Positions 7,163 through 26,263 of a stretch of 64,000 bases of DNA are shown here, piece by piece. The position numbers and the translations under genes were made by a program. Numbering within the stretch: position 1 is the first letter of the stretch; every line of letters begins with the position of its first letter. The stretch spans positions 62,001 through 126,000 of the forward strand of contig NZ_WYDS01000011.1 of the NCBI RefSeq assembly GCF_009914765.1, given 5' to 3'. The notes under the pieces are model-generated. The model saw only the letters and a list, made by a program, of their open reading frames with translations, ran no database searches and was not told the origin of the DNA. This stretch comes from Halodesulfovibrio sp. MK-HDV (GTDB lineage: Bacteria > Desulfobacterota > Desulfovibrionia > Desulfovibrionales > Desulfovibrionaceae).

Positions 7163-8038
7163 ATGCTTAATTACAACAAATCGATGATATGGAACATGAC
7201 AAGGAATTGTAACTTTCAATGTTCCTACTGTTATTTTCCCCATACAAACGGCAAAATAACTGATCCAGTATCTACTGACACGCTTTTAGATTTTCTTAAC
7301 AATAAAAATGCCCGTTGGTTAGTGGGAATGACAGGTGGAGAGCCTTTCATTTATCCTGATTTTGTTTCTCTATGTGAACAAGTTACGCAAAATCATTATA
7401 TTGGTGTGGACACAAACCTAAGTTTATCTACTCAGATAGCAGATTTTGCAAAAAGAATTTCTCCTTCACGCGTTAATGATATCTATGCATCTTTGCATAT
7501 AGAAGAACGTGAAAAAAGAAATGCAGTACCACAATTTATAGAAAATTATCATACACTTGCCGATGCAGGGTTCACCATTAAAGTTAACTATGTACTGCAT
7601 CCTTTAATGGAAGATCGATACGCTGCTGACGTCGAATTTTTCAAAAAAAATGGTGTTCCTATTACGCCCCGTCCATTCAAAGGTATCTACAATTCATTAA
7701 AATACCCGCAAAACTACTCTGCAAATATCAAAAGCATCTTTGCTAGTCATCCGGGAGCAGGAACCAAAATGGTGTTCAACTTCCGCGGTGTTGACTGTAA
7801 AAGTGGTCATTCTTTCATTCGTATGGAACCGGACGGAACAATCTTACGCTGTCCGGGAGACAGAACCGTACTCGGTAACATTCATAATGATGTCTCCCTC
7901 AACGCCGGTGCCACACCTTGCGCCGTTGACAGATGTCCATGTCAGGGAATCAACTATGTGGACCTTAATCCTGCCGAGGGATGGTTCATTGAAGGAATGC
8001 GCTCGTTTCTCACCGGATCAGAAAAAAAACGCCGCTAA
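7163..8038 (+). CDS. Radical SAM/SPASM-like protein (N-terminal part of a frameshifted radical SAM-TPR protein)
   Basis: Radical S-adenosylmethionine enzyme, 291 residues as written. C16-x3-C20-x2-C23 (CNFQCSYC) binds the [4Fe-4S] cluster that cleaves SAM, and MTGGEPF is the GGE motif that holds the SAM amino group. The C-terminal part carries further Cys (DCKSGHSF, LRCPGD, CAVDRCPCQG), resembling a SPASM-type auxiliary cluster. Translation stops just after an A8 run at 8022-8029; removing one A joins the frame to a TPR segment (8028-8339), so the intended product is probably about 390 residues. It heads the long plus-strand cluster and faces the HMA_2-like gene across a 137-base divergent promoter region. 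Substrate unknown; a peptide, sugar or lipid modification linked to the glycosyltransferases downstream is inferred. Confidence 0.85.
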   Translation: MLNYNKSMIWNMTRNCNFQCSYCYFPHTNGKITDPVSTDTLLDFLNNKNARWLVGMTGGEPFIYPDFVSLCEQVTQNHYIGVDTNLSLSTQIADFAKRISPSRVNDIYASLHIEEREKRNAVPQFIENYHTLADAGFTIKVNYVLHPLMEDRYAADVEFFKKNGVPITPRPFKGIYNSLKYPQNYSANIKSIFASHPGAGTKMVFNFRGVDCKSGHSFIRMEPDGTILRCPGDRTVLGNIHNDVSLNAGATPCAVDRCPCQGINYVDLNPAEGWFIEGMRSFLTGSEKKRR

Positions 8039-8339
8039 TGCCTTCCGCCAAACACTCGTCTATGACAGCGAGCACTCCAGCGCACTGAACAACATTGGAA
8101 TCTTTGCACACGGCAATGGAGACTATGCTCACGCCAAACGACTTTTTGAACACGCAAACAGCATCCATCCACACATTCCGCTGTATAAGCAGAACCTTGC
8201 CATAATAGAAGATCTTATCAGTGAGCAAAGACTATCTCCTGACCATCCTGAAATCAGCGAAATAGTACGCCCGAGCGCTACAACAGCCGAACATTTTGTC
8301 GCAACAGGACAAGCAATACCGCTGTCGGAAGAAAAATAA
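8028..8339 (+). pseudogene. TPR-containing C-terminal part of the radical SAM protein, displaced by +1 frameshift
   Basis: No start codon of its own is convincing. In the +1 frame relative to the radical SAM gene, codons from 8028 read N-A-A-N-A-F-R-Q, then a clear tetratricopeptide repeat (ALNNIGIFAHGNGDYAHAKR, followed by an H-x-P turn), ending at TAA 8337-8339. Because the join is exactly at an A8 run and the TPR reading is intact, this is most simply the C-terminal domain of the preceding gene, separated by an extra A. It could be a sequencing error, a real mutation, or a site of polymerase slippage that restores the frame in some transcripts. Confidence 0.65.
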
Positions 8340-8452
8340 CGTTTCACCACGGGCTCTTACAAAAACAATAATACTATTTTTTTCTGTAATGATTCACAGA
8401 CTTAGATACTTGCATTCACTGTGAACATCTTACCAAGGTGCGGTAATTACTC

Positions 8453-9658
8453 ATGAGTTCTACATACAATATCCTCATGTATTCCCACGATACATACGGA
8501 CTTGGGCATATACGAAGAACAATGGCTATTGCACGGAATTTAAGTGCGCCCGGCGTTAATATTCTTATTCTGACAGGGTCTCCCATTGCCGGTCGCTTCC
8601 CCATTCCGTTCGGTGTCGACTTCGTCCGCATCCCCGGTATGATCAAGCAAAGCAATACCGTCTATGTGCCGCATTCCATTAAAGTTGATCCACAAAAAGC
8701 TTTGGAAATACGGCAGGAAATCATCACTGCCACTGCAAAGTCTTTTGACCCTGATCTGTTCATTGTGGACAAAGTTCCTGTGGGTCTCAAAGGGGAAGTA
8801 CTCCCAGTACTCCAATGGTTTAAAACATCACGTCCTGACACTAAAGTAGTGCTGGGATTACGTGACATTTTAGACGATTCAGCATCTACCCGTGCAGAGT
8901 GGAATGAAAAAAACTACTTCAACGTACTGGATTCCCTATACTCCGAGATATGGATTTACGGACAAGAAAATTTTTACAACCCGATTGTTGAATACGGCCT
9001 TCCCCCTTCCATCAGCAACAAGTGTGTCTTCACCGGCTACATACCTCGCCAGACACCCAATCGAAAAATCACACTCAAGCAACTTATGAATGGAAATGGA
9101 AACGGAACAGCTGATTCCAGCAAGCTTATTGTTGTAACCGCCGGAGGCGGAGGCGACGGGTATCACATGCTGGATACCTATCTAACAATGATAGAAGAAA
9201 CACCGGACATTCCATTTAAAACCTATATGGTTTCTGGCCCGTTTGTTCCGCAGGACTTGCAAGACTCGCTTGCAAAACGAGCAAAAAAATGTGGTGTCAT
9301 TTTCGCCACTTTCCATAAACGGTTGGAAAAGATCATGGCGGCAGCTGACCTTGTAGTGAGCATGGGCGGGTACAATACTATCTGCGAAATTTTATCACTC
9401 AAAAAACCATCGCTCATTATTCCTCGGGAAAGCCCGCGACTTGAACAGCTCATCCGTGCACGCGTATTACAATCCGCAAAACTGGCAGACTATATCAAAT
9501 GGGATTGCCTCACCCCATTAGCACTGCGCGAAAAATTGGTCACCATGCTGGAAGACTCTTCACAGTATGAGCAAAGTATTAACGAATTTTCCATGACCGG
9601 ACTAGAGATCATTCGCTCACGACTCTCCGCATTTAAAGGGGACACCATCGATGCATAG
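8453..9658 (+). CDS. Glycosyltransferase, GT28/MurG-like (GT-B fold)
   Basis: Cytoplasmic or membrane-associated GT-B glycosyltransferase of 401 residues. The N-terminal Rossmann half begins YNILMYSHDTYGLGHIRR, with the glycine-histidine acceptor loop (GLGH) usual in MurG-like enzymes. The C-terminal half has a glycine-rich GGGGDGYHM loop (about 223-233) and the nucleotide-sugar binding segment SMGGYNTICEIL near residue 303. It is not MurG itself, as the signature loops differ and there is no cell-wall cluster. A paralogue with the same architecture is encoded at 12776-13978. It overlaps the next glycosyltransferase gene by 8 bases, which indicates coupled translation. Donor and acceptor sugars cannot be told. 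Confidence 0.85.
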   Translation: MSSTYNILMYSHDTYGLGHIRRTMAIARNLSAPGVNILILTGSPIAGRFPIPFGVDFVRIPGMIKQSNTVYVPHSIKVDPQKALEIRQEIITATAKSFDPDLFIVDKVPVGLKGEVLPVLQWFKTSRPDTKVVLGLRDILDDSASTRAEWNEKNYFNVLDSLYSEIWIYGQENFYNPIVEYGLPPSISNKCVFTGYIPRQTPNRKITLKQLMNGNGNGTADSSKLIVVTAGGGGDGYHMLDTYLTMIEETPDIPFKTYMVSGPFVPQDLQDSLAKRAKKCGVIFATFHKRLEKIMAAADLVVSMGGYNTICEILSLKKPSLIIPRESPRLEQLIRARVLQSAKLADYIKWDCLTPLALREKLVTMLEDSSQYEQSINEFSMTGLEIIRSRLSAFKGDTIDA

Positions 9659-10259
9659 CGTACCTACACTGGGTATGATTCTGAAAGGATACCCGCGCAT
9701 CTCTGAAACTTTTATCTCCAACGAGATCAAACTATTAGAAGAACAAGGCTTTACTATTCACATTTTTTCAATGCGAAAACCGCGTGAAACATTTTCACAC
9801 AAATCAGTAAAGTCAATCCACGCACAGGTAACATACTTACCGGAATATCTTTCTCTAGGCTTCCCGCGTCTGCTGTGGAACACGCTTTTATGTGCCCTGC
9901 TGCACACTCCGACGTTCTGCAAGACGTTCAAATTCTTTCTTTCCCGCTTCTCAGGAACCGCGAAAGTCCACACGTGGGTTAAGCATTTTATGCAGGCATG
10001 TGTGGTCGCCAATACGGTTCAAGCAAAAAACATTACCCATCTCCACAGCCACTTTGTGCATACTCCGACATCCGTTGCCATGTACGCAGCCAAGCTTGCG
10101 AATATTCCGTTCAGCTTTACCGCCCATGCAAAAGATATCTACACTCAGAAGCCGGAACGAGTTGCAGAAAAAATGCAACACGCTCTTTTTGCTATCACCT
10201 GCACAAAATACAATAAGCTTGCGCTGGAAACCATTGCCAGATCATACCCCCGCCCCTAA
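9651..10259 (+). CDS. Glycosyltransferase family 4, N-terminal half (frameshifted gene)
   Basis: N-terminal half (202 residues) of a GT4-type glycosyltransferase: GYPRISETFISNEI at the N-terminus and HLHSHFVHTPTSVAMYAAKL (about 125-145) are typical of this group's acceptor domain. It ends prematurely at TAA 10257-10259, right after the run TACCCCCGCCCC. Deleting one C gives Y-P-A-P-N-A-P and runs straight into the C-terminal half encoded to 11016, so one base is extra here. As written the protein would lack the nucleotide-sugar binding domain and be inactive. The start overlaps the upstream gene by 8 bases. Confidence 0.8.
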   Translation: MHSVPTLGMILKGYPRISETFISNEIKLLEEQGFTIHIFSMRKPRETFSHKSVKSIHAQVTYLPEYLSLGFPRLLWNTLLCALLHTPTFCKTFKFFLSRFSGTAKVHTWVKHFMQACVVANTVQAKNITHLHSHFVHTPTSVAMYAAKLANIPFSFTAHAKDIYTQKPERVAEKMQHALFAITCTKYNKLALETIARSYPRP

Positions 10260-11016
10260 TGCTCCGCCCCGTTATGCATTGGCTCCGATAGAGGACGGCT
10301 CTCCGGTTCGAACTCCGCAACCCGGCTACTGCCCAATCCATACAATCTACCACGGCATAGACTTGTCCCTCTTCTCTACAAATAAGAACGGACTTACAAA
10401 CCACCCTCCCTATTCAATTCTCACGGTGGCACGTTTGGTGGAAAAAAAGGGACTTTATACAATTCTGGAAAGCCTTCGCCTCCTATTTTTGCGCAATCTT
10501 CCCTTCAGATACACGCTTATCGGTGAAGGACCATTGTTAGAAAAGCTTGAAAGCATTGTGTACCAATATGGACTCACTGATTTTGTAGAATTTACAGGCA
10601 CGCTTCCTCACGAGGAAGTACTGCGCCATTACCGCAAAGCCGATCTTTTTCTTCTGGGATGCACCACCGCGCAGGATGGCGACAGAGACGGCATTCCCAA
10701 TGTGCTGGCAGAAGCCATGGCAATGGGAGTTCCTGTAGTTGCAACCCGCGTGTCTGGAATCCCTGAACTTATAGAACACAACAAGTCCGGTCTTCTTGTT
10801 CCTTGTGACAATGCAGATGCACTGGCGAATGCCACGGAACAGCTACTTACCAACGAAGCACTTCGTCAGACCATCATATCCGGTGCCGAACGTAAGGTTC
10901 ATAAAGTATTCAACAACAGACAGCTGATTATGGAGCTTGGGGATATATTTGAAGAAAATGGCATTGTTCGGGAAGAAGCAGACACCATGTCAGAAATGGA
11001 GTGGTCATCTTCATGA
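10255..11016 (+). pseudogene. Glycosyltransferase family 4, C-terminal half (displaced by frameshift)
   Basis: Continuation of the preceding gene in the +1 frame. It has the GT4 donor-binding domain: IYHGIDLSLF, the strand-loop ILTVARLVEKKGL, LIGEGPLLEKLE, and the E-x7-E type signature GIPNVLAEAMAMGVPVVATR followed by GIPELIE. It ends at 11016 and overlaps the next gene start by ATGA. Together the two halves make about 455 residues, somewhat longer than usual for GT4. Whether the break is real or an assembly error cannot be decided from this sequence. Confidence 0.72.
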
Positions 11017-12131
11017 AAATTGCGTTCTGCACCCCGTTCAAACCACTAACACATCCACGCATATCCGGAGATGTGACCATTGCAGAAGACTTAGCAACAT
11101 TTTTCAAGACTCAAGGGCATGACGTATGGATAGTTCCACAAGTATCTACACGCTATATCTGGAAAACCCCTCGTAACTGGGGGCAAGCATACGCAACCGC
11201 GCAGCTTGTAAAAGAGATACTGCAAAGTAATGAAAAGCCCGATGTATGGTTTACCTATCATTCGTACTATAAGGCTCCGGACATTTTAGGATCTCTGGCA
11301 GCAAAAGAAGATATTCCATATACGATTTTTGCCCCGTCCCATGCGCCCAAGCGAAAGAAAAGTTGGAACACCAAGCCGGGGTATTATCTCAATAAAAAAG
11401 CGCTGCAACAGGCAACGCATATTTTTGCAAACAAACATCGAGATCTGAAAGGGTTACAACAGATTATCCCTTCCAGCCGTCTAACATTCATCCCGCCCGG
11501 TATCCAGACAACTAAGTTCACACGGGATGAAACATTGCGCGAAAAAAATCGCACTGTATGGAATGCAACAAACAGCATTGTCGTGCTGACAGTTGCCATG
11601 CTGAGAGAAGGAACAAAATCGGAAGGCGTAGAGCATGTGATTAACGCTTGTCATGATCTGATCTCTCAAGGGCATGACATTCAGCTGGTCATCGCGGGAA
11701 ACGGCATAATGCGCGCGTATCTCGAAAAAAAAGCTCAGCAATTGTTGCCGAACCGATACACCTTTCTGGGTACTGTTCCTTCAGAACAATTACCGCAAGT
11801 CTATTCCAGTTGCGATATTTTTGCCTTTCCCGGCATCCATGAAGGACTTGGAATGGTATATCTGGAAGCCCAAAGCTGCGGCTTACCAGTCGTTGCATGG
11901 GATCATGATGGTGCCCCGCAAGTTGTGAAGAATGGAAAGACAGGCATCATTACCCCGTCGTACGACCACAACGCTTTTACTCAAGCAATTGCCAGACTGG
12001 TAGAATCGAAAGAATTACGAAGAACCATGGGCACGGCTGCAACAACACATGCTGTGACCAATCATAATATCCAACATAACTATGAAGAAGTAGACGCAAA
12101 GCTTCGTGTCATCACAAGAACAACATCATAA
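11013..12131 (+). CDS. Glycosyltransferase family 4
   Basis: Intact GT4 glycosyltransferase of 372 residues. N-terminal acceptor domain: KIAFCTPFKPLTHPRISGD. C-terminal donor domain: FIPPGIQTTKF, VAMLREGTKSEGVEHVI, VIAGNG and the signature FAFPGIHEGLGMVYLEAQSC-type block with conserved Glu residues, then GLPVVAWD. The ATG at 11013 overlaps the upstream stop (ATGA). A GTG 12 bases upstream is possible but less likely. It forms part of the sugar-transfer set of the cluster; the nucleotide sugar and acceptor are unknown. Confidence 0.88.
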   Translation: MKIAFCTPFKPLTHPRISGDVTIAEDLATFFKTQGHDVWIVPQVSTRYIWKTPRNWGQAYATAQLVKEILQSNEKPDVWFTYHSYYKAPDILGSLAAKEDIPYTIFAPSHAPKRKKSWNTKPGYYLNKKALQQATHIFANKHRDLKGLQQIIPSSRLTFIPPGIQTTKFTRDETLREKNRTVWNATNSIVVLTVAMLREGTKSEGVEHVINACHDLISQGHDIQLVIAGNGIMRAYLEKKAQQLLPNRYTFLGTVPSEQLPQVYSSCDIFAFPGIHEGLGMVYLEAQSCGLPVVAWDHDGAPQVVKNGKTGIITPSYDHNAFTQAIARLVESKELRRTMGTAATTHAVTNHNIQHNYEEVDAKLRVITRTTS

Positions 12132-12158
12132 GCCAACTACTCCACCCCAGAGGTTGCC

Positions 12159-12776
12159 ATGAAACAAACACATATTGGTCTCCTACGCCACGCTCCCACA
12201 GGCTGGAATGCCATGAAACGAATTCAGGGACAATACGATGTTCCGCTTCCGCAAGAAAGTTACGAAGTCATTGACGGATGGATTCCCTCCATCATGCAGC
12301 ATCCGTGGACACGAATCCTCACCAGCGATCTATCCCGTGCATACTTCACCGCATTAGCATTGAACAAACATTTGAATATCCCGTTTGATCTTGATTCTCG
12401 CTTACGGGAGCAGGACTGGGGCGCATGGACTGGTGATTCAATTCGCCATCTGCGTGAAATTGCCCCTGAAGAAGTAGCGCGTCAGGAAGCAGCAGGATGG
12501 GAATTTACACCACCAAGCGGTGAAAGCAGAACAAAGGTTCTCAACAGAACGCTTGAGGCATTGCATGATGCAACCCTCCGCTGGGAAGGGGAAAATATCC
12601 TCATCGTGACCCACTATGGTAATATCGCAATCCTAGCCAACCATCTTATGCATAAAAATTTTCTTCCCGAGGAAGGAAGGCTTATTGAAAAACATGCCCT
12701 GCATCGTCTTGTTGCAGAGCAAGCCACACCGGAATCAACTCAATATTCTGTGTTAGCCCTTAACGAGGTGCTCTAA
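12159..12776 (+). CDS. Histidine phosphatase superfamily protein (phosphoglycerate mutase-like)
   Basis: Phosphatase of 205 residues, branch 1 of the histidine phosphatase superfamily. LLRHAPTGWN near residue 9 supplies the phospho-accepting His in R-H-x-x-T; REQDWGAWTG supplies the acidic proton donor region; VTHYGNIA near residue 150 supplies the second catalytic His. It resembles CobC-type or sugar-phosphate phosphatases more than glycolytic mutases. Flanked by glycosyltransferase genes and ending in a TAATG overlap with the next one, it probably removes a phosphate from a glycosylated intermediate, in the manner of glucosyl-3-phosphoglycerate phosphatase; this is inference. Confidence 0.87.
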   Translation: MKQTHIGLLRHAPTGWNAMKRIQGQYDVPLPQESYEVIDGWIPSIMQHPWTRILTSDLSRAYFTALALNKHLNIPFDLDSRLREQDWGAWTGDSIRHLREIAPEEVARQEAAGWEFTPPSGESRTKVLNRTLEALHDATLRWEGENILIVTHYGNIAILANHLMHKNFLPEEGRLIEKHALHRLVAEQATPESTQYSVLALNEVL

Positions 12777-13978
12777 TGCGCATTGTTCACTACTGCCAGC
12801 ATGTGCTTGGCATGGGGCATTTTTTCCGTAGTCTGGAAATAGATAAAGCACTCGAGGGGCATGATGTAACCCTCATTACAGGTGGTACTCCTTTATCCAT
12901 CACCTATCCGCCTCATGTGCAGGTTATTGAGCTACCCTCACTCTCCATGGATGAAGAGTTCGGTGCATTCATTCGTACAGACAAAGACGGCACCAAATAT
13001 GTTCTCACAGAACACGAGCTTGATGCCATTAAAGCGCAGCGCACAACGATTTTAACAGAGTCACTCAAAGCATTGCAGCCGGACATTTTTCTTGTGGAAC
13101 TTTTCCCCTTTGGTCGTAAGCAATTCAGCTTTGAACTTATGCCTGTTCTGGAACTTTCAAAACAAAACGCCTTCCCCAATATGAAGACAGTGTGCAGCGT
13201 GCGGGACATCCTTGTCGAAAAAACAAAACAGCAGGAATTTGAAGAGCGTGTTCTTTCTATTTTGAACACCTATTTTGCTGCTGTCCTCGTGCATACTGAT
13301 CCAAAAGTGATCACGCTGGATGCAACCTTTCCCCGAATCAACGACATCAAAATTCCAATTTACAATACTGGATACATCACACCGCTGCCTCACAACATCA
13401 GCCCTAAAGCAGTTCGAGAATCACTCTCCATTGCACCGGATACGCCGTTCATTCTTGGTAGTATCGGCAGCGGGTCAGTGCATCCGGAAATTATGGAACA
13501 ACTTGCAGCCGCATCCATTCAACTCAACAATTCAACGCCCCATAAACTCCTCATATCCACTGGTCCTTTTATGCGGCAAGACAGCCAAGTACGCATTCAA
13601 CAGCTCTGCGATCCACACCCGCATATTACTGTCACCGATTTTATTCCGGATTTCATCAATCATCTCAGCGCAGCTGACATCTCGTTGAGCATGGCTGGAT
13701 ACAACACGACCATGAATTTACTCGCAGTAAACACCTACGGATTGGTGTATCCGTTCGATCAAAATCGCGAACAACGTATGCGTTCAACAAGTCTGGAACA
13801 GCTCGGAGCACTCAAAATTCTTGAACAGGAAGACATGCAGTCAGATCACCTTTGCAATCTACTCACGCAGCACATCAACACCCCAGCACCGCCACCGAAT
13901 CATCAAGTTGATCTACAAGGGGCAGCTGAATCTGTTCGAATATTAGAGCAATTATTGAGTCATAAAGCAGCAGGGTAA
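12776..13978 (+). CDS. Glycosyltransferase, GT28/MurG-like (second paralogue)
   Basis: GT-B glycosyltransferase of 400 residues with the same plan as the protein at 8453-9658: N-terminal MRIVHYCQHVLGMGHFFRSL (GMGH loop) and C-terminal SMAGYNTTMNLLAVNTYGL, aligned with the SMGGYNT block of its paralogue. Mid-protein ILGSIGSGSVHPEI corresponds to the glycine-rich donor loop. It starts at the A of the upstream TAATG. Two related enzymes in one cluster suggest successive additions of similar sugars or a shared donor. Confidence 0.85.
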   Translation: MRIVHYCQHVLGMGHFFRSLEIDKALEGHDVTLITGGTPLSITYPPHVQVIELPSLSMDEEFGAFIRTDKDGTKYVLTEHELDAIKAQRTTILTESLKALQPDIFLVELFPFGRKQFSFELMPVLELSKQNAFPNMKTVCSVRDILVEKTKQQEFEERVLSILNTYFAAVLVHTDPKVITLDATFPRINDIKIPIYNTGYITPLPHNISPKAVRESLSIAPDTPFILGSIGSGSVHPEIMEQLAAASIQLNNSTPHKLLISTGPFMRQDSQVRIQQLCDPHPHITVTDFIPDFINHLSAADISLSMAGYNTTMNLLAVNTYGLVYPFDQNREQRMRSTSLEQLGALKILEQEDMQSDHLCNLLTQHINTPAPPPNHQVDLQGAAESVRILEQLLSHKAAG

Positions 13979-14083
13979 AGACAACCTTTCAAAACGCAAC
14001 ACTGTCAAAGATAGCTTTGCTGCAAAACAATTATGTTGAAAGATAATTTTGTGCATTTTTAACCTATTGGAGGCAGTGAGACT

Positions 14084-14887
14084 ATGGCAAAACAACGACC
14101 GTATATTTCAGCGCTATGGCATGCAGTGCCTTCCAATATTCTAGCATTACTTGCACAAACTATTCAGGCAGGCGTAGAAGCGCACGCAGAAAACGGCCAT
14201 CCTATGGGAGAAGTGCCTACAATCTTTTTCCGCGCGGATGACGTAGCCATTCCATCAACTCCATGTCGAAAAATGCTGCAAATTTTTGCAGAGCACGACA
14301 CACCGCTAGCACTGGCTGTCGTACCTGCATGGAGCACAAAAAAGCATGTTGAGGCTCTTCAGTCTGTATCACCAAACAAAAACCACCTGTGGGGCTGGCA
14401 CCAACACGGTTGGTCACATGTAAACCACACAACGCATGGTCGTAAGTGTGAGTTTGGTAGCGACAGACTTCATCAGACATGCGCAGAAGAATTGCAGAAG
14501 GGGTATGAAACCCTGACATCGCTATTCGGAGAATCTTTCTCTCCTATCTTCACCCCGCCGTGGAACAGAATTTCAGATTCAAACATCCAAATTTTACAAA
14601 ACATCGGTTGTAAAGCCATCTCACGTGTCTCTTCTGCACCCCATCAAGAAATTCTGCCGGACATTCCGGTAAATGTTGATCTGCACACCCGTAGCGAGCT
14701 CACGGCGGCAAGTGGCTGGAATGAACTTCTGGCAGAGTTGCGCTCGGGCATTGCTTCCGGTCGATGCGGCGTCATGCTGCATCACGATAGAATGAACAGT
14801 GCTGCCGAAGAATTTTTGCAACGCCTTCTGATAATTTTACAAAGCTACCCTGTCCGACCTGTTCCCATATATTCCTATATGCTATGA
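14084..14887 (+). CDS. Polysaccharide deacetylase family protein (NodB-like)
   Basis: Protein of 267 residues with the NodB homology motifs in order: FRADDVAIPS near residue 48 (the D-D motif, catalytic base and metal ligand), WGWHQHGWSHVNH near residue 104 (H-x3-H metal site), FTPPWNR near residue 150 (motif 3), and MLHHDRM near residue 228 (late His motif). No signal peptide is seen, so it should act in the cytoplasm on a sugar intermediate before export. GGAGG precedes the ATG. It lies 105 bases after the second GT28-like gene. The likely reaction is removal of an N-acetyl group from a hexosamine; other amidohydrolase roles are possible. Confidence 0.88.
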   Translation: MAKQRPYISALWHAVPSNILALLAQTIQAGVEAHAENGHPMGEVPTIFFRADDVAIPSTPCRKMLQIFAEHDTPLALAVVPAWSTKKHVEALQSVSPNKNHLWGWHQHGWSHVNHTTHGRKCEFGSDRLHQTCAEELQKGYETLTSLFGESFSPIFTPPWNRISDSNIQILQNIGCKAISRVSSAPHQEILPDIPVNVDLHTRSELTAASGWNELLAELRSGIASGRCGVMLHHDRMNSAAEEFLQRLLIILQSYPVRPVPIYSYML

Positions 14888-15035
14888 TGGCGATTACTCA
14901 TGATTTTGCTCAACCATAGAACACAATTTTACAGCATGCAGTCAAAGATTGTTCCTTTTATTGCGTAGCTTCAGAGAACATTCTTCTCTACTAAAAATCT
15001 GGGTTGTATGTTGAGCAGCAACTGTAGGGATAGTT

Positions 15036-15728: not shown

Positions 15729-15737
15729 GAACTACGC

Positions 15738-17931: not shown

Positions 17932-20900
17932 CACCACCAACAAAAGCTCTTTTTAATGACAAATTTGAGCTCACACCTATCGACTTTCCCCGCTTCTGGA
18001 TTTCACATCAAAAAGCGGTAGAACTTTTTGGCGATCTCGACGCGCTCTATGATCAAACCATGGCGCAAAATCAAGAAATCAAAGTGACTGTCTCTGCCAA
18101 TGTCCAATGGGTTCAGGCAGAAGGTGAAAACGTATGGGCTTTTATTCCCGGAACAGGGGAAGACGCTGATAAAGACTATATGCTCGTTGAGGCATTCTAC
18201 GACACAGGCGCTTTCGTTCCAGAACACGCCCCGGGAGCAGATGAATCAACTTCCATCGCCACGCTCCTGTCCATTGCTGAACGTCTTGGCGACAATCCGC
18301 CTAAAGAATCTGTTCTGTTGCTTGCCACATCCGGACACTCCCAGAGTAATGCCGGAATGCGCTCTTTTGCGTCGCTATTAGCACAATCACTGGGCAACAT
18401 AAAAAAACTATCCACAGGTCTTGCACAAAAAGCTTCTGACACACGAGACACCATTGCAATTCTCAACAATCCAAATCTGCTGGATACGCCGCAATCACTA
18501 TCCACTTATTCTCCAAGAGAATGTGAGTTGCTCCGGCTTGCACTCGACTCCGTATCCAAAACACAAGCAGACATGTACACACGGGAAGTTTCACAACTGC
18601 GCCTTGCCGCAACCGGCTCAGAGGAAGACAACAGCCGTATTAAAGAACTCGCAGCAAAACGGCTGGAGCTTCGTAATCTCCTCTGGTTAAGCTCCAAACA
18701 GCAAGCAACGCGCCCTATTCCACCAGAAGAACTTACAATATTACGCAGTCTATTGTCGCTTGCCACTGCAGAACAGCAGGAACGGTTCGCCGACCTCGTC
18801 ATTCGTTTACGCAGTGCAGAAAGCAAACGGCTTTTAAAAGAAGCAATTGGCGAACGCACATTACAAGCAGGTTTCGGGCTCTATCTTTCTACCCACAGTT
18901 CTGGTGTTGGGGGATTTACCCGAGGCTACTTATATGAATTAAAAGCGAGCATTAATCGCACATCGTTCTTCGGACCATTATCGGAAATGGTAACGGAACA
19001 TGCCAAAAAATTACCGAACTATGACGAACTATGGCAGGATTCACTACACCCGACTCCGACAACGCCATGGCAAAGTTATCTTCCAGACAATCCGAAGTTC
19101 AGTAGCGAAGTTTTAGCTATTGCCGGTTTCCCGATGATCAGTCTTGCGTCTCTGCACGATTTCCGTCCGTTGTGGGGAACTCCGTACGATGTTCTGGAAG
19201 CCACAGATCAAGAATACGCACTGATTCAAAATGAATTTATTACGTCACTCATTACAACAATAGCAAACAACCCCCTGCCTGTTATTGATCGAGGCAGAAA
19301 CGGCTCTGCCACACTGGGCGGAAGCGTAAACTTACAGCGTCAGGGTGAACCGTTTCCAGATAAACCTGCGGTGGGTACGCTTGTTCTTGCCTATCAAGGA
19401 CCTACCCGTTTTTACTCCATGGTTAATACAGATGGCAGCTTTGATCTTCCGGGACTTGCAACATCCCAGTTCACTGTGCACAAAGCTGTCATTGAAGCCT
19501 ATAAAATAAATCCTGAGACCGGCCTTGCCGTATGGGCAGTGGATAAACCGACTACCGGCAAAAGCAACTATCGTGTAAAAATGCGCCGCAATAACATGGG
19601 GACACAGCTCACCATGTTTGACTGTGCGCAAACTACGCTATTTAACCTGCTTGATGCTCGAACACTTGCGTATCTGTACCGAACAGAGATTATTGATGCG
19701 CGGACTGAAACCAGCCCGTTACGTTTCTGGTATTCTCGTCTGGATACACGCAGTTCAACACTGGGGACATTCTTCCTTGAACCGGAAGTACCCTTCAAGC
19801 TCACACTTTCGGACACCGTTCTCGGTAAAAAAGTTCTTCTGTTAAATAACACTCCAGAAGATCCGCTGGGTAAGGGATACCTCATCAGCGAGTGGCCTGT
19901 TATTCCGTTTACTGAATACCATGCAGCAAAAGACATGTGGACGCTGCTCATTCCACGCATTGCAAATCTGGAAAGCAAAGGTATTCACAACGAGCGTATA
20001 TCCAGTCTCTACAGCCAGGCACAACTGCTTTTAAAGCAGGCAGATGAATACTATACGCAAAAAGACTGGGTCGGTTTGCTTAACACATCCCGCGCATCAC
20101 TTGCGACAGCTTCGCTTGTGTACAACGATATTGAAGGAACCCAGCGAGACGTTCTCTCCGGCGTGCTCTTCTACATTGCGCTGTTTGTACCGTTTGCCTA
20201 CTGCCTTGAACGACTGCTCTTCGGGTATGCTTCCATCTATAAACGAATTCTTGCATTCCTCGGACTGCTCACAGCCACAATCCTTGTGGTCTATTTTGTA
20301 CACCCTGCATTCCAACTTACATACAGCCCGCTCATTGTAATTCTAGCATTTTTCATCATTGGGCTTTCGTTCCTTGTGTCGATGATCATATTCCTCCGCT
20401 TTGAGCGAGAGATTAAGAATTTTCAGGAGCAATCGCACAATATACGAGTTTCTGAAGCGAATAAAAGTGCGACCTTTACTGCTGCGATGGCTATCGGAGT
20501 GAGTAACTTACGCCGCAGACCGTTGCGTACTGCGTTAACTATTGCAACGCTTACCATTCTGACATTTACCATTATGAACTTTACCTCTACCAAAAGCATC
20601 CGTACTGCCGGATGGGTAGAGTTCAGCAACTCTGCTCCATATTACGGATTACTGCTAAAGAACCCGAACTGGCGTGATATGCCGGTAGAAACACTGCAAA
20701 TCACCACAGATTTGTTTGGAGCTGAGGGAATATTATCCCCGCGTGTATGGCTTGAAATCCAAGACAAAACACGCGCCCCGTTCCTGCCTGTGGAATATAA
20801 CGGCAAGGAATCAGTAGCACGTGCACTCATCGGGCTTGCTCCTTCTGAAACAGAGATGAGTACGATAAGTAAGCATCTTATCTCCGGGTCATGGTTTGAG

Positions 20901-22331
20901 GAAAGTGATCAGCACGCCATTATTCTTCCTGAAGAAATTGCGACCCAGCTTGGCATAACCTACATCGGTGCAATTGCTCCTGAAGTTCTCTTTTGGGGGA
21001 TACCTTACACCGTACGTGGCATCATAAAGAACAAAGCACTGGCCGAAAGTAAAGATCTTGATGGCGAGCCAATCACGCCGATCATTTACCCTAACATTGC
21101 CGCTTCCGACCTAAGTGATACTGAGGCTGAAGCACTCAATCGAGGGGAAGACCTCTTACGTTACGAAAGCCGGTACGAACATATAAGTGGCGCACGCACC
21201 GTTATTATTCCTGCACGAACACTTTTATCCGAAGGCGGCTCACTTAAAGCTGTCGCCATTAAAACAGGGAAAGATAAACCGGACGATGTAAACCATGGTC
21301 TGCTAAATCTCGGCTACCGCTTCGGTATGCTTATATTCAGCGGCACCACTTCTGGTACATATCTGTACTATGCCTCTAATTTTATCAGCTACAGTGGTCT
21401 TTCCACTATCCTGATTCCTATTGGCATTGCTGTACTGATTGTTCTGAACACTATGATCGGTTCAGTGTATGAACGCCGCGGTGAAATCGGCGTTTACACA
21501 TCTGTCGGACTGGCACCGTCCCACGTGGCTTTCCTCTTTGTCGCAGAATCTCTAGCCTTTGCGGTCATCAGCGCAGTGTTCGGTTATCTCATAGCGCAAA
21601 CGGTGTCCGGCTTTATGTCCGGCACGGAGCTGTGGGCTGGCATGACTGCTAACTATTCCTCCACTGCCGGTGTTATGGCTATGTTGCTCATCATAATTGT
21701 TGTGCTCATATCCTCCATCTACCCTTCCAGAATTGCGTCAGAAATTGCCATTCCGGATGTCACACGAGCATGGAAACTGCCAAAACCGGAAGGCGATGTT
21801 ATGCGCATCGAATTGCCATTCCTTGTAAGAAGCTCTGAACAGGCCTTCGCCGGAGGCTTCCTGTACGAGTACTACCATGGACACGCGGACATATCGCATG
21901 GGGACTTCTCAACTGAAGACATCACATGCTCTTTCCTGCCGCCCGATGATCTTGTTGAAAAAGGACTCATACCAGACGCAGTACAGCAGGATGCCGCAGG
22001 TGACGCATGTCTTACTTTCGATTTTAAAACGTGGCTTGCCCCGTTTGACTTTGGTGTACGCCAAAATGTGCAGCTTATCATGTGTCCTTCTGAATCGCAT
22101 CACGGTTTCAAAGAAATTCATGTAATCCTGACCCGCGAAGCAGGAGAAAAACGCGTCTGGCAAAATCTGAATAAGCCATTCCTGCATGGTCTGCGGAAAC
22201 AACTTCTTGTATGGCGTTCTATCGAAAAAGGCTCACGCAAAAGCTATGAAGATGACTTTAAAACTGCCTTTGCTGAAACAGGAAAAGAGATTCCGCATAC
22301 AGCGATGGAGACCAAAGGAGACAGCGCATGA
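17928..22331 (+). CDS. Giant M28-peptidase-like/FtsX permease protein, main part
   Basis: About 1467 residues from ATG 17928; the intact protein, including the upstream fragment, would be near 1658. Order: M28-like extracytoplasmic domain (VEAFYDTGAFVPEHAPGADE, then LLLATSGHSQSNAG), where the usual H-x-D, D-D/N and G-E-E metal and catalytic residues are largely replaced, so probably a pseudo-enzyme; a helical region; a carboxypeptidase-regulatory-like beta domain near 480-560; a membrane helix cluster near 740-840; FtsX helix 1 after NLRRRPLRTALTIATLTIL; an MacB-like periplasmic domain; three FtsX helices with ERRGEIGVYTSVGLAPSH; and a C-terminal cytosolic domain. It overlaps the ATPase gene upstream and the next gene by ATGA. 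It is likely the large permease of the ABC system. Confidence 0.8.
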   Translation: MTPPTKALFNDKFELTPIDFPRFWISHQKAVELFGDLDALYDQTMAQNQEIKVTVSANVQWVQAEGENVWAFIPGTGEDADKDYMLVEAFYDTGAFVPEHAPGADESTSIATLLSIAERLGDNPPKESVLLLATSGHSQSNAGMRSFASLLAQSLGNIKKLSTGLAQKASDTRDTIAILNNPNLLDTPQSLSTYSPRECELLRLALDSVSKTQADMYTREVSQLRLAATGSEEDNSRIKELAAKRLELRNLLWLSSKQQATRPIPPEELTILRSLLSLATAEQQERFADLVIRLRSAESKRLLKEAIGERTLQAGFGLYLSTHSSGVGGFTRGYLYELKASINRTSFFGPLSEMVTEHAKKLPNYDELWQDSLHPTPTTPWQSYLPDNPKFSSEVLAIAGFPMISLASLHDFRPLWGTPYDVLEATDQEYALIQNEFITSLITTIANNPLPVIDRGRNGSATLGGSVNLQRQGEPFPDKPAVGTLVLAYQGPTRFYSMVNTDGSFDLPGLATSQFTVHKAVIEAYKINPETGLAVWAVDKPTTGKSNYRVKMRRNNMGTQLTMFDCAQTTLFNLLDARTLAYLYRTEIIDARTETSPLRFWYSRLDTRSSTLGTFFLEPEVPFKLTLSDTVLGKKVLLLNNTPEDPLGKGYLISEWPVIPFTEYHAAKDMWTLLIPRIANLESKGIHNERISSLYSQAQLLLKQADEYYTQKDWVGLLNTSRASLATASLVYNDIEGTQRDVLSGVLFYIALFVPFAYCLERLLFGYASIYKRILAFLGLLTATILVVYFVHPAFQLTYSPLIVILAFFIIGLSFLVSMIIFLRFEREIKNFQEQSHNIRVSEANKSATFTAAMAIGVSNLRRRPLRTALTIATLTILTFTIMNFTSTKSIRTAGWVEFSNSAPYYGLLLKNPNWRDMPVETLQITTDLFGAEGILSPRVWLEIQDKTRAPFLPVEYNGKESVARALIGLAPSETEMSTISKHLISGSWFEESDQHAIILPEEIATQLGITYIGAIAPEVLFWGIPYTVRGIIKNKALAESKDLDGEPITPIIYPNIAASDLSDTEAEALNRGEDLLRYESRYEHISGARTVIIPARTLLSEGGSLKAVAIKTGKDKPDDVNHGLLNLGYRFGMLIFSGTTSGTYLYYASNFISYSGLSTILIPIGIAVLIVLNTMIGSVYERRGEIGVYTSVGLAPSHVAFLFVAESLAFAVISAVFGYLIAQTVSGFMSGTELWAGMTANYSSTAGVMAMLLIIIVVLISSIYPSRIASEIAIPDVTRAWKLPKPEGDVMRIELPFLVRSSEQAFAGGFLYEYYHGHADISHGDFSTEDITCSFLPPDDLVEKGLIPDAVQQDAAGDACLTFDFKTWLAPFDFGVRQNVQLIMCPSESHHGFKEIHVILTREAGEKRVWQNLNKPFLHGLRKQLLVWRSIEKGSRKSYEDDFKTAFAETGKEIPHTAMETKGDSA

Positions 22332-24304
22332 ATACATTACGACTCCCCGCTCTAGCCTTTGCCATTCTTCTCGGCATACTCATGTGCGCAGCAGGGCCAT
22401 TCAATACCGCATGGCTTGGCGGTACACCGCTTGGTGGTGGACATTTTCCACTTGCACCGTTTTTCATCTCATTCTTTTTATTTATTGGCACAGCAATTAT
22501 TGCCACATCAACAAACACAAAACCTATACTGAATGGTACTGAGCAACTTGTCACATGGCTCTTTATGGTCATCGGTATAGGTATCGGATATTCCGGACTG
22601 GCAGAATCATTCTTCCTTAATATTACTGCACCGGTTTATTACCAGACTGGTGGATACGGCTGGGTAAAAACACTCACTCCTTACCTTCCAGACTCATGGT
22701 ATATGAACGACCCTTCCGTGGTGAAACCGTTGTACGAAGGATTCATCGGCGGACGGAACATGAGCCTCCTGCAAGTTGTTCAACAGATCCCTTGGGTAGC
22801 GTGGACAGGTGTTCTTACATTGTGGGGACTATTCATCATGATGGCGTACCTCACCATGCTTTGCCTCGTTAACCTGTTCGGCAGACAATGGGTAGAAAAC
22901 GAACGCGTCAACTTTCCTCTCCTGCGCGTGCCGCAGTTTTTGAGCGATGCTTTGGACTCCGGTACAATGCGGGAATTTCTGACCAATAAATTCCTGCTCT
23001 GGGGCATTGGTATTCCAGTATTTATTCACATGATTAATGGGCTGAGCTACCATTATCCGTCCATTCCTCAACTGCCAATGATCGTACTTGCCGGACAATA
23101 TTTCCCGAAATATGGGCTCTTTTCCGGTTTCAACAAGCTGCAACTGTTCCTTGTTCCGGCATACATCGGCTTTGCCTTCCTCGCCACACGGCAAATCGCG
23201 TTCAGTTTCTGGTTCTTCTATATCTTCGGTGCTCTTTTTATGGGTATCCTGTATGTACTGGGATTCAATGTTCCTCAATCTGCCATGGGCATTAACTTCG
23301 GACCAAACCTTGCGCGCCCGGCAGAAGCTATGGTCATGGGCTCTACCCTGATTTTCTTTTTGTTTATTCTCTGGCTCGCACGTGAGCACCTCGTTAATGT
23401 TTTTAAATCAGGCTTACGAAATACAGATGTTCATCAAGGCGAAATTATACCTGCAGCATGGTCTTTATGGGGCGCAGTTGCCGGTATCGCAGCCATGATG
23501 GTTTGGTGCCGATGGTTCGGTATGTCCATTGGTGGTTCCGTGGTAATGCCTGTCATCTTCTTTGTAATCTTACTGGTTATTTCCCGCGTCATCACTCAAG
23601 GCGGGCTGCCACAGTTTATGCTTACTGCTGCACCTTCCGACGGTGTTACCGGTATACTTGGAACCCGCTTCCTTGGCGTAGCTGGTATTGCCCTTACGGC
23701 TGTGATGCAAAAAATGATGTTCCTTGATGTTCAAGAATCCCTCATGCCGAACCTTGTGCACGGCAACAAGATTTCCGAAAACACAAAAAGTAAACGGCGC
23801 TTCTTCCTTGCGCTGACAATTCTTCTCGCCCTGTGCGTCTGCACCGCATTCTGCTCCATGCTCATTCTTGGATACAAAACAGGACTGCGTGATCTTCAAC
23901 TCGAAGTTCAATCACAGTCCATATTATCCATCTATGAAAATGCAGGCAGATTAATTGATGCACCACTGAGCGCCAACTCGTGGACCACATCTTTCGCTAT
24001 CATTGGTGCCATATTCATGGGCGTACTTGTATTTTGCTTCTACAAGTTCCCTTGGTGGCCGCTTCATCCATTAGGTTTTATCGCAGCGTACAGCAAAAGC
24101 ATGCGCATCCTGTGGGTTTGCTTCTTCCTCGGGTGGCTCTGCAATTATTTGGTACTGCATTACGGGGGCACAGCTCTCTATCGAAAGATTCAGATGGTAT
24201 TTGTGGGGCTTGTTATCGGTGACATGCTTATGGGCGGCGTATGGGCTATCGTGAGTCTCTTCTCTGGAATTGTGTATCCAGTATTTCCGGTACTTGGGGG
24301 ATAG
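22328..24304 (+). CDS. OPT-like polytopic membrane protein (DUF6785/DUF6784 type)
   Basis: Integral membrane protein of 658 residues with about 14 predicted hydrophobic segments. It resembles the DUF6785/DUF6784 proteins distantly related to oligopeptide transporters (features such as FGRQWVENERVNFPLLRVPQ and RVITQGGLPQF). Its start overlaps the giant FtsX gene (ATGA) and its end lies 3 bases from the next gene, which encodes a similar protein, so the two probably form a heterodimer. Conserved polar residues sit in the ENERVNFP loop. The family has no established substrate. Family assignment is from recall of the sequence type and should be verified by profile search. Confidence 0.7.
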   Translation: MNTLRLPALAFAILLGILMCAAGPFNTAWLGGTPLGGGHFPLAPFFISFFLFIGTAIIATSTNTKPILNGTEQLVTWLFMVIGIGIGYSGLAESFFLNITAPVYYQTGGYGWVKTLTPYLPDSWYMNDPSVVKPLYEGFIGGRNMSLLQVVQQIPWVAWTGVLTLWGLFIMMAYLTMLCLVNLFGRQWVENERVNFPLLRVPQFLSDALDSGTMREFLTNKFLLWGIGIPVFIHMINGLSYHYPSIPQLPMIVLAGQYFPKYGLFSGFNKLQLFLVPAYIGFAFLATRQIAFSFWFFYIFGALFMGILYVLGFNVPQSAMGINFGPNLARPAEAMVMGSTLIFFLFILWLAREHLVNVFKSGLRNTDVHQGEIIPAAWSLWGAVAGIAAMMVWCRWFGMSIGGSVVMPVIFFVILLVISRVITQGGLPQFMLTAAPSDGVTGILGTRFLGVAGIALTAVMQKMMFLDVQESLMPNLVHGNKISENTKSKRRFFLALTILLALCVCTAFCSMLILGYKTGLRDLQLEVQSQSILSIYENAGRLIDAPLSANSWTTSFAIIGAIFMGVLVFCFYKFPWWPLHPLGFIAAYSKSMRILWVCFFLGWLCNYLVLHYGGTALYRKIQMVFVGLVIGDMLMGGVWAIVSLFSGIVYPVFPVLGG

Positions 24305-24307
24305 GTC

Positions 24308-26263
24308 ATGTATCAAGATAAAGAATTACAAGAATATCGTGATCTACTTCAGCCGCCTACTCAATTTGAAGAAGGCTTTGACTGGAAAACCATAATCGGT
24401 GCTGTCTTCATCGGCTTCCTGATGATGCCGGGCAGCATGTACTTGCAGCTCGTTATCGGGCAAGGAATCGGCCCTGCTGCACGTTGGGTAACCATTATTC
24501 TCTTTGCAGAAGTAGCCAAGCGCTCATATACCGAATTAAAACAGCAAGAAGTTTTTCTCCTGTTTTACATGGCAGGTGCTGCGCTTGCATCGCCATTTTC
24601 CGGTCTTTTATGGAGCCAGTATCTTGTCCAGTCGGACGCGGCCAAGATGCTGGGACTTACAGAATTTATTCCAACGTGGATTGCGCCACAACCCGGCTCA
24701 GAAGCACTGGCGGACAGAACATTTTTCCATCAGGATTGGCTCATTCCAATTTTGCTTCTAGCGGGCGCGCAGCTTGTTCAGCGTATTGACCATTTTGGTC
24801 TGGGCTACGCTCTCTTCCGTCTTACATCTGATGTGGAAAAACTGCCGTTCCCAATGGCACCGGTTGGTGCATTAGGTACCATGGCTTTAGCAGAATCTAC
24901 TGAAGACCGTAAATCCGGCTGGAAATGGAGAGTGTTCTCCATAGGCGGGGTAATCGGACTTCTCTTCGGCTTTTTCTATATACTACTTCCGGCGCTTTCC
25001 GGCTTACTTTTTGAAGAACCCATACGGCTGATCCCGATACCGTGGATTGAGCTGACACGACATACAGAGTCGATTCTTCCTGCGGTTGCTACCGGCTTCC
25101 AGTTTGACCTGACGCTCGTTTTTGTTGGTATGGTTCTTCCGTTCTGGGCAGTCATCGGTGGGCTTGTAGGTCTGCTTGTAACCATTGCCGCAAACCCTTT
25201 CCTCTTCGATGCTGGAATTCTTCATCGTTGGAAACCGGGAATGGAAACTGTTGAAACGGTCTTCGCTAACAACTTCGACTTCTACATGTCTTTCGGTATC
25301 GGCCTTGGTCTTGCCATTGCGATTATCGGTATCTGGCAGGTTATCCGTTCTTTCAGCTCAAAAAGCGGAAAACTGGACTTTTCAAAACTCTTCAAGCCAC
25401 CTCCTGGACGTGGTGATATTAACTTCTGGCTTTCAATCGGCATCTATTTCTTCTCAACCATGACCTACATACTCATTTGCCACTGGCTTGTTCCAAGTTT
25501 CCCTTGGATTTTCTTTCTCATTTACGGCTTCATCTATACACCGATTGCATCATACATCAGCGCCCGTATGGAAGGTATTGTCGGACAGTTTGTTTCCCTG
25601 CCGTTTGTACGTGAGGCAAGCTTCATCGCTGGAGCTAAATATTTTGGCTACAACGGGATAGAAATTTGGTACGCCCCGATTCCTTTGCATAACTATGGTG
25701 AAGCAACCGTTCAGTTCCGTGAAATCGAGCTTACCGGTACAAACTTGCGCGGCATTATTAAAGCTGAGTTTGTAGTGTTCCCAATTGTTATTATTGCCTC
25801 GCTCATCTTCTCCCAGTTCCTCTGGAGACTGGCACCGATACCTTCGGCAAGTTATCCATATGCCCAAAAGATTTGGCATTTGCAGGCACTGAACTCTCTT
25901 CTCCTGCAATCATCAACGCTTGAAGGTAACTCGCTATTCTATCAGGCTCTCAGCTACGCCTATGTTGGCTCCGGTGTCGGACTCGGGATCATTTTGTACG
26001 CGTTCCTATCCGTATTCGGGCTCCCCATAATGCTTATTTATGGAGTTGTGCGCGGACTTGGGCAATCTACCCCGCACGGCATTATTCTAGAAGTAGTCGG
26101 CGCGTTGCTAGGACGCTATTTCTTCCTAAAAAAATACGGAAAAAAATGGAGGCACTACGCACCAGTTCTACTTGCTGGATTCTCCTGCGGCATGGGGCTC
26201 ACCGGCATGCTTGCCATGGGTTGCACATTGATTCTGAAGTCCCTAAGCCAACTTGCGTACTAA
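24308..26263 (+). CDS. OPT-like polytopic membrane protein, second partner (DUF6785 type)
   Basis: Integral membrane protein of 651 residues, related in plan to the preceding protein, with about 14 membrane segments. It has an OPT-like run near the N-terminus (IGAVFIGFLMMPGSMYLQL) and a VEKLPFPMAPVGALGTMALA block aligned with the ENERVNFPLL block of its partner. The C-terminal LIYGVVRGLGQSTPHG and a glycine-rich last helix end the protein. It is the last gene of the cluster and is followed by a strong terminator. It may be the second half of a transporter or a membrane scaffold for the glycan machinery. Confidence 0.7.
   Translation: MYQDKELQEYRDLLQPPTQFEEGFDWKTIIGAVFIGFLMMPGSMYLQLVIGQGIGPAARWVTIILFAEVAKRSYTELKQQEVFLLFYMAGAALASPFSGLLWSQYLVQSDAAKMLGLTEFIPTWIAPQPGSEALADRTFFHQDWLIPILLLAGAQLVQRIDHFGLGYALFRLTSDVEKLPFPMAPVGALGTMALAESTEDRKSGWKWRVFSIGGVIGLLFGFFYILLPALSGLLFEEPIRLIPIPWIELTRHTESILPAVATGFQFDLTLVFVGMVLPFWAVIGGLVGLLVTIAANPFLFDAGILHRWKPGMETVETVFANNFDFYMSFGIGLGLAIAIIGIWQVIRSFSSKSGKLDFSKLFKPPPGRGDINFWLSIGIYFFSTMTYILICHWLVPSFPWIFFLIYGFIYTPIASYISARMEGIVGQFVSLPFVREASFIAGAKYFGYNGIEIWYAPIPLHNYGEATVQFREIELTGTNLRGIIKAEFVVFPIVIIASLIFSQFLWRLAPIPSASYPYAQKIWHLQALNSLLLQSSTLEGNSLFYQALSYAYVGSGVGLGIILYAFLSVFGLPIMLIYGVVRGLGQSTPHGIILEVVGALLGRYFFLKKYGKKWRHYAPVLLAGFSCGMGLTGMLAMGCTLILKSLSQLAY

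Follow-up and report, generated by a model that had tools for sequence, protein, structure and literature searches.

Type VII ATP-binding cassette (ABC) machines such as LolCDE and MacAB-TolC combine their ATPase with FtsX permeases and, according to PMC12646458, typically act periplasmically—for example by extracting lipids or lipoproteins—without their substrate crossing the membrane. In YbbAP-TesA of E. coli, an FtsX-type permease and a LolD/MacB-like ATPase are joined to a periplasmic part with a hydrolase fold. Among sugar-building enzymes, the closest described cases are MurG and other members of glycosyltransferase family GT28, the mycothiol and bacillithiol pathways (MshA, BshA) with a GT4 glycosyltransferase, a phosphatase and a deacetylase, and the Wzx/Wzy, ABC-2 and synthase (Pel-type) export systems, where glycosyltransferases are clustered with membrane proteins. 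Here, we describe a run of co-directional genes in which such elements come together. It occupies the plus strand at positions 7163-26263 of a 64,000-nucleotide stretch of DNA—the window—from Halodesulfovibrio sp. MK-HDV (contig NZ_WYDS01000011.1, positions 62,001 to 126,000), and is apparently one previously undescribed system for making and moving a sugar-bearing envelope molecule in Desulfobacterota.

The cluster resembles YbbAP-TesA in its combination of permease, ATPase and hydrolase fold. However, its hydrolase-fold domain is predicted to be of M28 type, is fused to the permease and has lost its catalytic residues, and the cluster encodes two very unequal permeases, two extra polytopic proteins and a set of glycosyltransferases. 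With LolCDE and MacAB-TolC it shares the Type VII ATPase and the FtsX permeases, and the two unequal permeases might pair as a LolC/LolE-like heterodimer; unlike in these systems, no LolA, MacA or TolC partner is recognised in the cluster, and a giant pseudo-peptidase region is present. Its two MurG-like enzymes, GT28a and GT28b, bear the C-terminal GT28 domain but stay far under the NCBIfam equivalog cut-off for MurG (36 and 21.2 versus 250.25 bits), and they form paired paralogues tied to this system. Whereas the deacetylases of the mycothiol and bacillithiol pathways are of PIG-L type, the one found here is of NodB type, and no ligase is recognised in the cluster. The Wzx, Wzy, ABC-2 and Pel families gave no Pfam match among the 15 cluster open reading frames (ORFs) scanned (E ≤ 0.1), the rest of the genome being unsearched. 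A preliminary description of this DNA had claimed that no described system has this set, which stands after a directed search of open-access full texts: these hold no description of DUF6785, COG4671 or the gene combination, with subscription papers mostly outside their scope. PMC10553843 treats other polysaccharide clusters.

The core of the system consists of a sugar half—GT28a, the glycosyltransferases GT4a and GT4b, a histidine phosphatase (HisPhos), GT28b and the NodB-type deacetylase (NodB)—and a transport half—a small FtsX-type permease (FtsXs), the ABC ATPase, a giant FtsX permease, a DUF6785 protein and a 651-residue membrane protein (P651). Judged by their distribution across genomes, these genes very probably form one unit. 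Hereby, the giant FtsX, DUF6785, P651, GT28a and GT28b were followed through whole genomes and the other core genes by linkage; genomes, loci, contigs, families and genera are cited by our own numbers (G, L, C, f and g). Among 149 genomes of the class, the giant FtsX (search at E 1e-3, matches above 1,000 bits), GT28a and GT28b mark the same 62 genomes, and P651 is found in 61 of those (E 1e-30 for P651 and both GT28). The one positive genome lacking P651, G022, is a 140-contig assembly in which the giant FtsX match ends 2.5 kb from the contig start, on the side where P651 would be expected. Uncounted giant FtsX matches are second pieces, part-length FtsX similarities under 31 bits or N-terminal pieces in genomes already counted. 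Across 297 genomes of the phylum, P651 occurs in 20 (threshold 1e-10), and the same 20 carry GT28a (E < 1e-110, threshold 1e-60) and GT28b (E < 1e-80, threshold 1e-40). Weaker matches add four genomes for GT28a (E 1e-84 to 1e-98) and one for GT28b (E 1e-42), the latter being the same gene as the GT28a match of that genome. In a smaller sample of 148 phylum genomes, DUF6785 is present in nine, all P651-positive (E 1e-5), and long matches to a model of the FtsX core fall in the same nine; 13 further genomes match in part only, with ORFs of 227-516 aa (E 1e-15). Fisher tests give 2e-41 and 3e-30, with shared ancestry ignored. The tested families are thus kept or lost as a set in Desulfobacterota. 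This also holds within the genus of the window itself, where G019 and G090 are devoid of the giant FtsX, P651 and both GT28 genes.

Gene order and divergence point the same way. The order GT28a-GT4a-GT4b-HisPhos-GT28b-NodB-FtsXs-ABC-giant FtsX-DUF6785-P651 recurs in L119, L029, L031, L154 and L017-L021, in the last group with the methyltransferase gene inserted. All 20 class loci that were read carry the transport half. A search for loci encoding P651 gave 206, of which we used the best 80, taking a single top hit for each query at each locus; by title, these belong to Desulfobacterota-type organisms or to unplaced Deltaproteobacteria, Proteobacteria or Pseudomonadota. In 50 of these 80, all five transport genes stand in order, and most of the other 30 are cut by a contig end within 8 kb of P651. 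Profiles were built from hits of 0.6-1.5 times the reference length, and genes were assigned by bit-score thresholds with removal of overlapping ORFs, by which some real genes were lost in GC-rich loci. For eight families, compared as proteins above length limits from 27 genomes, pairwise distances correlate in all 28 pairs (rho 0.53-0.91, 20-26 genomes per pair), at values that 199 permutations failed to reach in any pair; species phylogeny contributes to these values. The two halves are often unlinked: in G109, distances of 150-410 kb separate GT28a, GT28b and the giant FtsX. Even the transport genes are partly non-adjacent in G220 and G252.

Several observations weigh against this unity. 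The positive genomes belong to 11 of the 38 genera in the class sample and to 17 of the 199 in the phylum sample, and hence co-occurrence and co-divergence partly reflect shared phylogeny. Of the 20 class loci read, only 10 have GT28 genes next to the transport half, and the other 10 have none near it. In L053 and L073, the 7-10 kb upstream of P651 hold no recognised transport partner, and in L082 and L097 DUF6785 alone lies beside it; L045 and L090 are without a recognised FtsXs. Lastly, GT4b, HisPhos and NodB survive without the rest in both genomes of genus g5. For G049 (L160:4442-10905), the transport genes are gone at the locus except for a C-terminal piece of P651 (residues 582-640) on the 3' side of NodB; GT28a is gone as well, stop codons interrupt GT4a, and of GT28b only about the first 71 residues are left. 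For G018 (L173), only GT4b, HisPhos and NodB are left of the core genes. These three have open frames in both genomes, with 65-71% amino-acid identity between the two, and D300—a frequent companion of the system described below—likewise has an open frame in both loci. For the giant FtsX, P651 and both GT28 genes, the search covered these two genomes in full; for the other lost genes, it covered the locus. As read from these relics, the system decays together, and the part GT4b-HisPhos-NodB can persist. Part of the sugar half can therefore work alone, which is evidence against a strict unity of that half.

Both the incomplete linkage and the lone survival of GT4b-HisPhos-NodB would be expected if a glycosylation operon and a transporter operon merely happened to be neighbours, without a functional link. 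This explanation is hardly credible, as the halves co-occur almost perfectly in the class and the phylum, also where they are unlinked, are jointly missing from G019 and G090 and were lost together in g5; we regard it as largely refuted. The preliminary description had joined the sugar half and an FtsX-type transport half into one system, and had named beforehand the point on which the idea should fall: homologues of the two never co-occurring in other genomes. Both halves are found together, with correlated divergence and shared loss, and the idea survives.

Within the window, the cluster is compact (Table 1). Six neighbouring pairs of genes overlap by 1-19 bases, and the spacing makes a single operon plausible, but there are gaps of 113 bp before GT28a, 105 bp before NodB and 148 bp before FtsXs. 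A promoter scan was uninformative (25 sites found versus 30.6 expected from shuffles). Pfam supports the radical SAM domain, two C-terminal GT28 and two GT4 domains, the histidine phosphatase, NodB/DUF2334, Methyltransf_24, the ABC ATPase and two FtsX domains. The plus-strand run of overlapping genes, a terminator-like hairpin at its end and the labels given earlier to the four glycosyltransferases, the phosphatase, the deacetylase, the methyltransferase, the LolD/MacB-like ATPase and the two FtsX permeases are thereby confirmed—for the ATPase also by its solved relatives.

Table 1 Features of the cluster in 5' to 3' order (positions in the window; bits from Pfam)
Feature	Position	Strand	Evidence and remarks
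Radical SAM(-TPR) protein	7163-8339	+	PF04055 57.5 bits; lineage-specific add-on; frame-broken near 8030
GT28a, MurG-like glycosyltransferase	8453-9658	+	PF04101 59 bits (cut-off 22); core
GT4a glycosyltransferase	9651-11016	+	PF13477 on 5' piece, PF00534/PF13692 on 3' piece; core; frame-broken near 10251
GT4b glycosyltransferase	11001-12131	+	PF00534 132 bits; core, kept in relic loci
Histidine phosphatase (HisPhos)	12159-12776	+	PF00300 127 bits; ancestral set
GT28b, second MurG-like glycosyltransferase	12776-13978	+	PF04101 38.5 bits (cut-off 22); core
NodB/DUF2334 deacetylase	14084-14887	+	PF10096 28.8 bits, PF01522 24.3 bits; ancestral set
FtsXs, small FtsX-type permease	15036-15728	+	PF02687 49.5 bits (cut-off 25.5); transport-half core
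Methyltransferase (Methyltransf_24)	15738-16634	+	PF13578 49.9 bits; add-on
Type VII ABC ATPase (MacB/LolD/YbbA type)	16616-17356	+	PF00005 122 bits; core
Giant FtsX permease	17356-22331	+	PF02687 40.7 bits (cut-off 25.5); core; frame-broken near 17904
DUF6785+DUF6784 polytopic membrane protein	22328-24304	+	PF20581 453.5 bits, PF20580 106.5 bits; core
P651, 651-aa polytopic membrane protein	24308-26263	+	family-less; core, most conserved component
Terminator-like hairpin	26338-26370		14-pair stem, listed for both strands; closes the cluster

By FtsX domain and ATPase type, the permeases and the ATPase are assigned to the Type VII ABC (MacB/LolCDE/FtsEX) superfamily. The best solved relatives of the ATPase are MJ0796, MacB and LolD, with YbbA lower in the list. 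FtsXs has five hydrophobic segments by hydropathy and reaches 35.2 bits on the NCBIfam profile lolCE, compared with a cut-off of 362.45. The giant FtsX measures 1,581-1,715 aa in the 54 named loci having an ORF of more than 1,500 aa. As exemplified by L037, it begins with a signal segment and about 890 periplasmic residues. Residues 931-1018 hold hydrophobic segments; these are followed by an FtsX unit, whose C-terminal helices occupy 1342-1462, and by a C-terminal domain that is conserved. No transmembrane-like segment was called between residues 1018 and 1342, and the first FtsX helix was also uncalled. A model of the periplasmic part, calculated from 26 natural sequences, has a mean pLDDT of 90.5 and matches the M28 aminopeptidase 2anp (Z 29.1, rmsd 2.3, 259 aligned residues, 17% identity), with the fold matches covering model residues 1-608. 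Pfam M28 is over its cut-off in the homologues of L072 and L087, but not in that of L037. When what we take to be the M28 catalytic motif is placed by eye on the alignment, 25 of 26 rows show Phe in place of a metal-binding His, none of the 26 has Glu at the catalytic-Glu positions, and the bridging Asp is retained in 26 of 26. According to the model, the giant FtsX hence carries an M28-peptidase fold without catalytic residues, just as the preliminary description had proposed with its extracytoplasmic pseudo-peptidase. Among the fold matches is the transferrin receptor, which is not known to have enzymatic activity. By analogy, a dead enzyme fold kept this well suggests a binding role, and the permease would extend Type VII ABC machines to a dead enzyme fold that probably serves recognition.

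The membrane part of the giant FtsX (residues 678-1304 of the window ORF 17928-22331) matches the PADLOC profile CARF_m8--CARF_LolE_TM with an E value of 8e-53 over profile positions 11-583 of 810, which opens another reading: the transport half might be a sensor or quality-control machine, whose giant FtsX reports on or clears envelope material that the sugar half supplies or repairs. The conserved C-terminal domain, probably cytosolic and without a solved relative by sequence, would fit such a role, and PMC12646458 counts BceAB with its sensor kinase and YbbAP-TesA among Type VII systems. However, the end of the PADLOC profile—which we take to be the CARF end—is left unmatched, as coverage extends no further than position 614 of 810, two further polytopic proteins are nearly always kept (P651 in 61 of 62 and DUF6785 in nine of nine positive genomes), and the link with two GT28 genes would be better explained by a dedicated cargo. 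We therefore consider a sensor improbable. As a separate observation, the CARF_m8 LolE-TM match hints at a wider FtsX-type family with cytosolic sensor domains. A role in anti-phage defence was rejected: only three of the 10 cluster proteins scanned against PADLOC gave matches—both FtsX proteins to CARF_m8 LolE-TM models, and the ATPase to mad3 (E 2e-30) and to weaker ATPase models—which are read as general ABC similarity.

The two polytopic proteins had earlier been called OPT-like. This label finds no support, as neither DUF6785 nor P651 matches Pfam OPT (PF03169) at E ≤ 0.1, nor does a homologue of P651, and the family has no match in any of 60 class genomes (E 1e-3). PMC10533852 names an OPT superfamily protein, Dde_0728, that could not be tied to the cluster. 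The DUF6785 protein has 13 hydrophobic segments by hydropathy. P651 has no Pfam match at E ≤ 0.1—which also holds for one homologue—and no NCBIfam match at E ≤ 0.01, and searching by sequence gave no credible relative of solved structure (best E 0.77). Profile comparison found no kinship between the two proteins, hereby using a P651 alignment of very low diversity (Neff 1.4). P651 is at the same time the most conserved part of the system: its median identity within the main clade is 79%, compared with 75% (ATPase), 42-57% (glycosyltransferases), 50% (DUF6785) and 46% (giant FtsX), and its minimum over 26 genomes is 67%, versus 61% for the ATPase. Its closest named relatives among the best 80 of 206 loci are those of Halodesulfovibrio (92-94% identity). 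A second, divergent clade of the system is found in families f43, f76, f96 and f32 of the phylum sample, partly in genomes of 2.3-2.8 Mb; P651 is 67-75% identical between the two clades (seven genomes of the divergent clade compared). That the glycosyltransferases vary while P651 hardly changes suggests that the glycan is variable and its carrier constant.

For the sugar half, profile comparison relates GT28a to GT28b (E 1e-37), and the closest solved relatives of GT28a are the MurG structures 7d1i (E 2e-6) and 1f0k (E 7e-6). HisPhos stays below all listed NCBIfam cut-offs, coming closest to CobC (96.5 versus 162.9 bits), and NodB is only marginally above its Pfam cut-offs (24.3 versus 23.1 bits for PF01522, and likewise for PF10096). 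Hydropathy calls no transmembrane segment in GT28a, GT28b, GT4b, HisPhos or NodB. It might hence be asked if the product of the sugar half is instead a small, soluble and lipid-free glycoconjugate resembling mycothiol or bacillithiol, which the membrane proteins then export or import. Besides the absence of transmembrane segments, such a product would agree with the survival of GT4b-HisPhos-NodB as a unit of open frames in two genomes and with the scores of GT4b on the NCBIfam models MshA (82 bits) and BshA (75.4 bits). These scores, however, are far under the cut-offs of 462.5 and 273.7 bits, an acetyltransferase is as little recognised in the cluster as a ligase, four glycosyltransferases are many for a cofactor, and Type VII ABC machines usually handle membrane-embedded or periplasmic cargo. 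A soluble product is thus unlikely.

The GT28 family includes enzymes with membrane-lipid acceptors, for example MurG. With HisPhos and NodB also considered, the product is best guessed to be a glycolipid or lipid-linked oligosaccharide. Its synthesis, movement across the inner membrane and extraction by the Type VII ABC machine is the best explanation of the cluster, with about an even chance of being right; the mechanism of glycolipid and extraction, taken alone, would come out at that level or slightly below it. In such a mechanism, the four glycosyltransferases, all free of transmembrane segments, would assemble a short oligosaccharide, with a membrane lipid or lipid carrier as acceptor, and HisPhos and NodB would trim it by dephosphorylation and de-N-acetylation. 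As the substrates of Type VII machines typically do not cross the membrane, a separate translocase would be needed, which P651 and DUF6785 could supply by carrying the product across the inner membrane. FtsXs, the ATPase and the giant FtsX would then act as a mechanotransmission machine of the MacB/LolCDE kind, using ATP to pull the product out of the outer leaflet, with the dead M28-fold domain as the binding site for the product or for a partner.

Further points count against this mechanism. The structure model of P651 is unusable (pLDDT 35), and its putative role as a transporter is therefore read from hydropathy. No lipid acceptor, initiating enzyme, MacA/LolA/EnvC-like adaptor or outer-membrane exit is recognised in the cluster, the rest of the genome being unsearched for these. 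Apart from the membrane-crossing step, which has a real chance of being of a categorically new kind, the system would be a glycan or glycolipid pathway that uses a Type VII ABC machine. In its full form—a P651/DUF6785 translocase coupled to a Type VII motor with a dead aminopeptidase receptor, serving as inner-membrane exit route for a variable oligosaccharide built by GT28 and GT4 enzymes in many sulfate-reducer lineages—such novelty seems doubtful. If the best explanation given above is right, many of these lineages possess an envelope glycan system whose membrane-crossing step is new, and two membrane families of no assigned role become testable in cultured strains.

The copy of the system in the window differs from those of its relatives. 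Compared with five genomes of the same genus (hits of at least 60% identity), three window genes are broken by single-base frame changes, all of them within the cluster; two of the three breaks lie in homopolymer runs, of A near 8030 and of C near 10251, and the third is found near 17904. The ORF list of the window hence holds 16 cluster pieces, compared with 13 genes in the relatives. The cluster of fourteen genes that had first been described is real, but its gene count is not upheld. In L017, the counterparts of the broken genes are each one ORF: 391 aa for the radical SAM-TPR protein, 454 aa for GT4a and 1,658 aa for the giant FtsX. For the latter, the window ORFs of 191 aa (17356-17931) and 1467 aa (17928-22331) correspond to one gene of 1,657-1,659 aa in all five same-genus relatives, so that the 191-aa ORF represents its start, signal segment included. 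With three genes broken, the window copy may be inactive or mis-sequenced. That it is decaying is a tentative reading: three broken genes within 19 kb stand against no credible break in the compared flanks, where 60 comparison rows versus G108 (both sides) and G076 (downstream only) cover part of the flank genes, proteins covered under half being dropped, and where one flagged split looks like an over-extended start. However, the genome is a 4.17 Mb draft in 54 contigs, homopolymer runs are a usual place for sequencing errors, and the flank comparison is only partial.

The radical SAM and methyltransferase genes are add-ons outside the conserved core, although they had been counted as members of the system. 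Radical SAM was assigned in 11 of the 138 profiled loci L017-L154 (L017-L022, L029, L137, L140, L146 and L152), and the methyltransferase in eight, all from the genus of the window. Of the earlier label radical SAM-TPR, the first part is confirmed; the second corresponds to a TPR_2 signal of 21.9 bits in the intact relative only, below the Pfam cut-off of 27.

Further genes accompany P651 at L087:11996-17818 and about 40 similar loci: a secreted protein of about 206 aa, D300, a PqqD-like protein, STAS and HATPase regulators, a cNMP-binding protein and an MsbA-like ABC transporter whose ATPase domain contains a large insertion. D300 (about 296 aa, no Pfam match) is present in 62 of 62 positive but also in 10 of 87 negative class genomes (E 1e-5); it was therefore rejected as a core member and is counted as a frequent companion. 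In the genome of the window, D300 and a PqqD-like gene lie elsewhere, beside a 314-aa ORF on contig C28 (L158:8543-9869).

The cluster is flanked on its 5' side by a multi-PAS histidine kinase gene on the minus strand (window 4400-6430). Directly 3' of it, fdhE, fdhD, mobA-like and moaA-like genes follow (window 26779-30024), corresponding to formate dehydrogenase and molybdenum cofactor functions.

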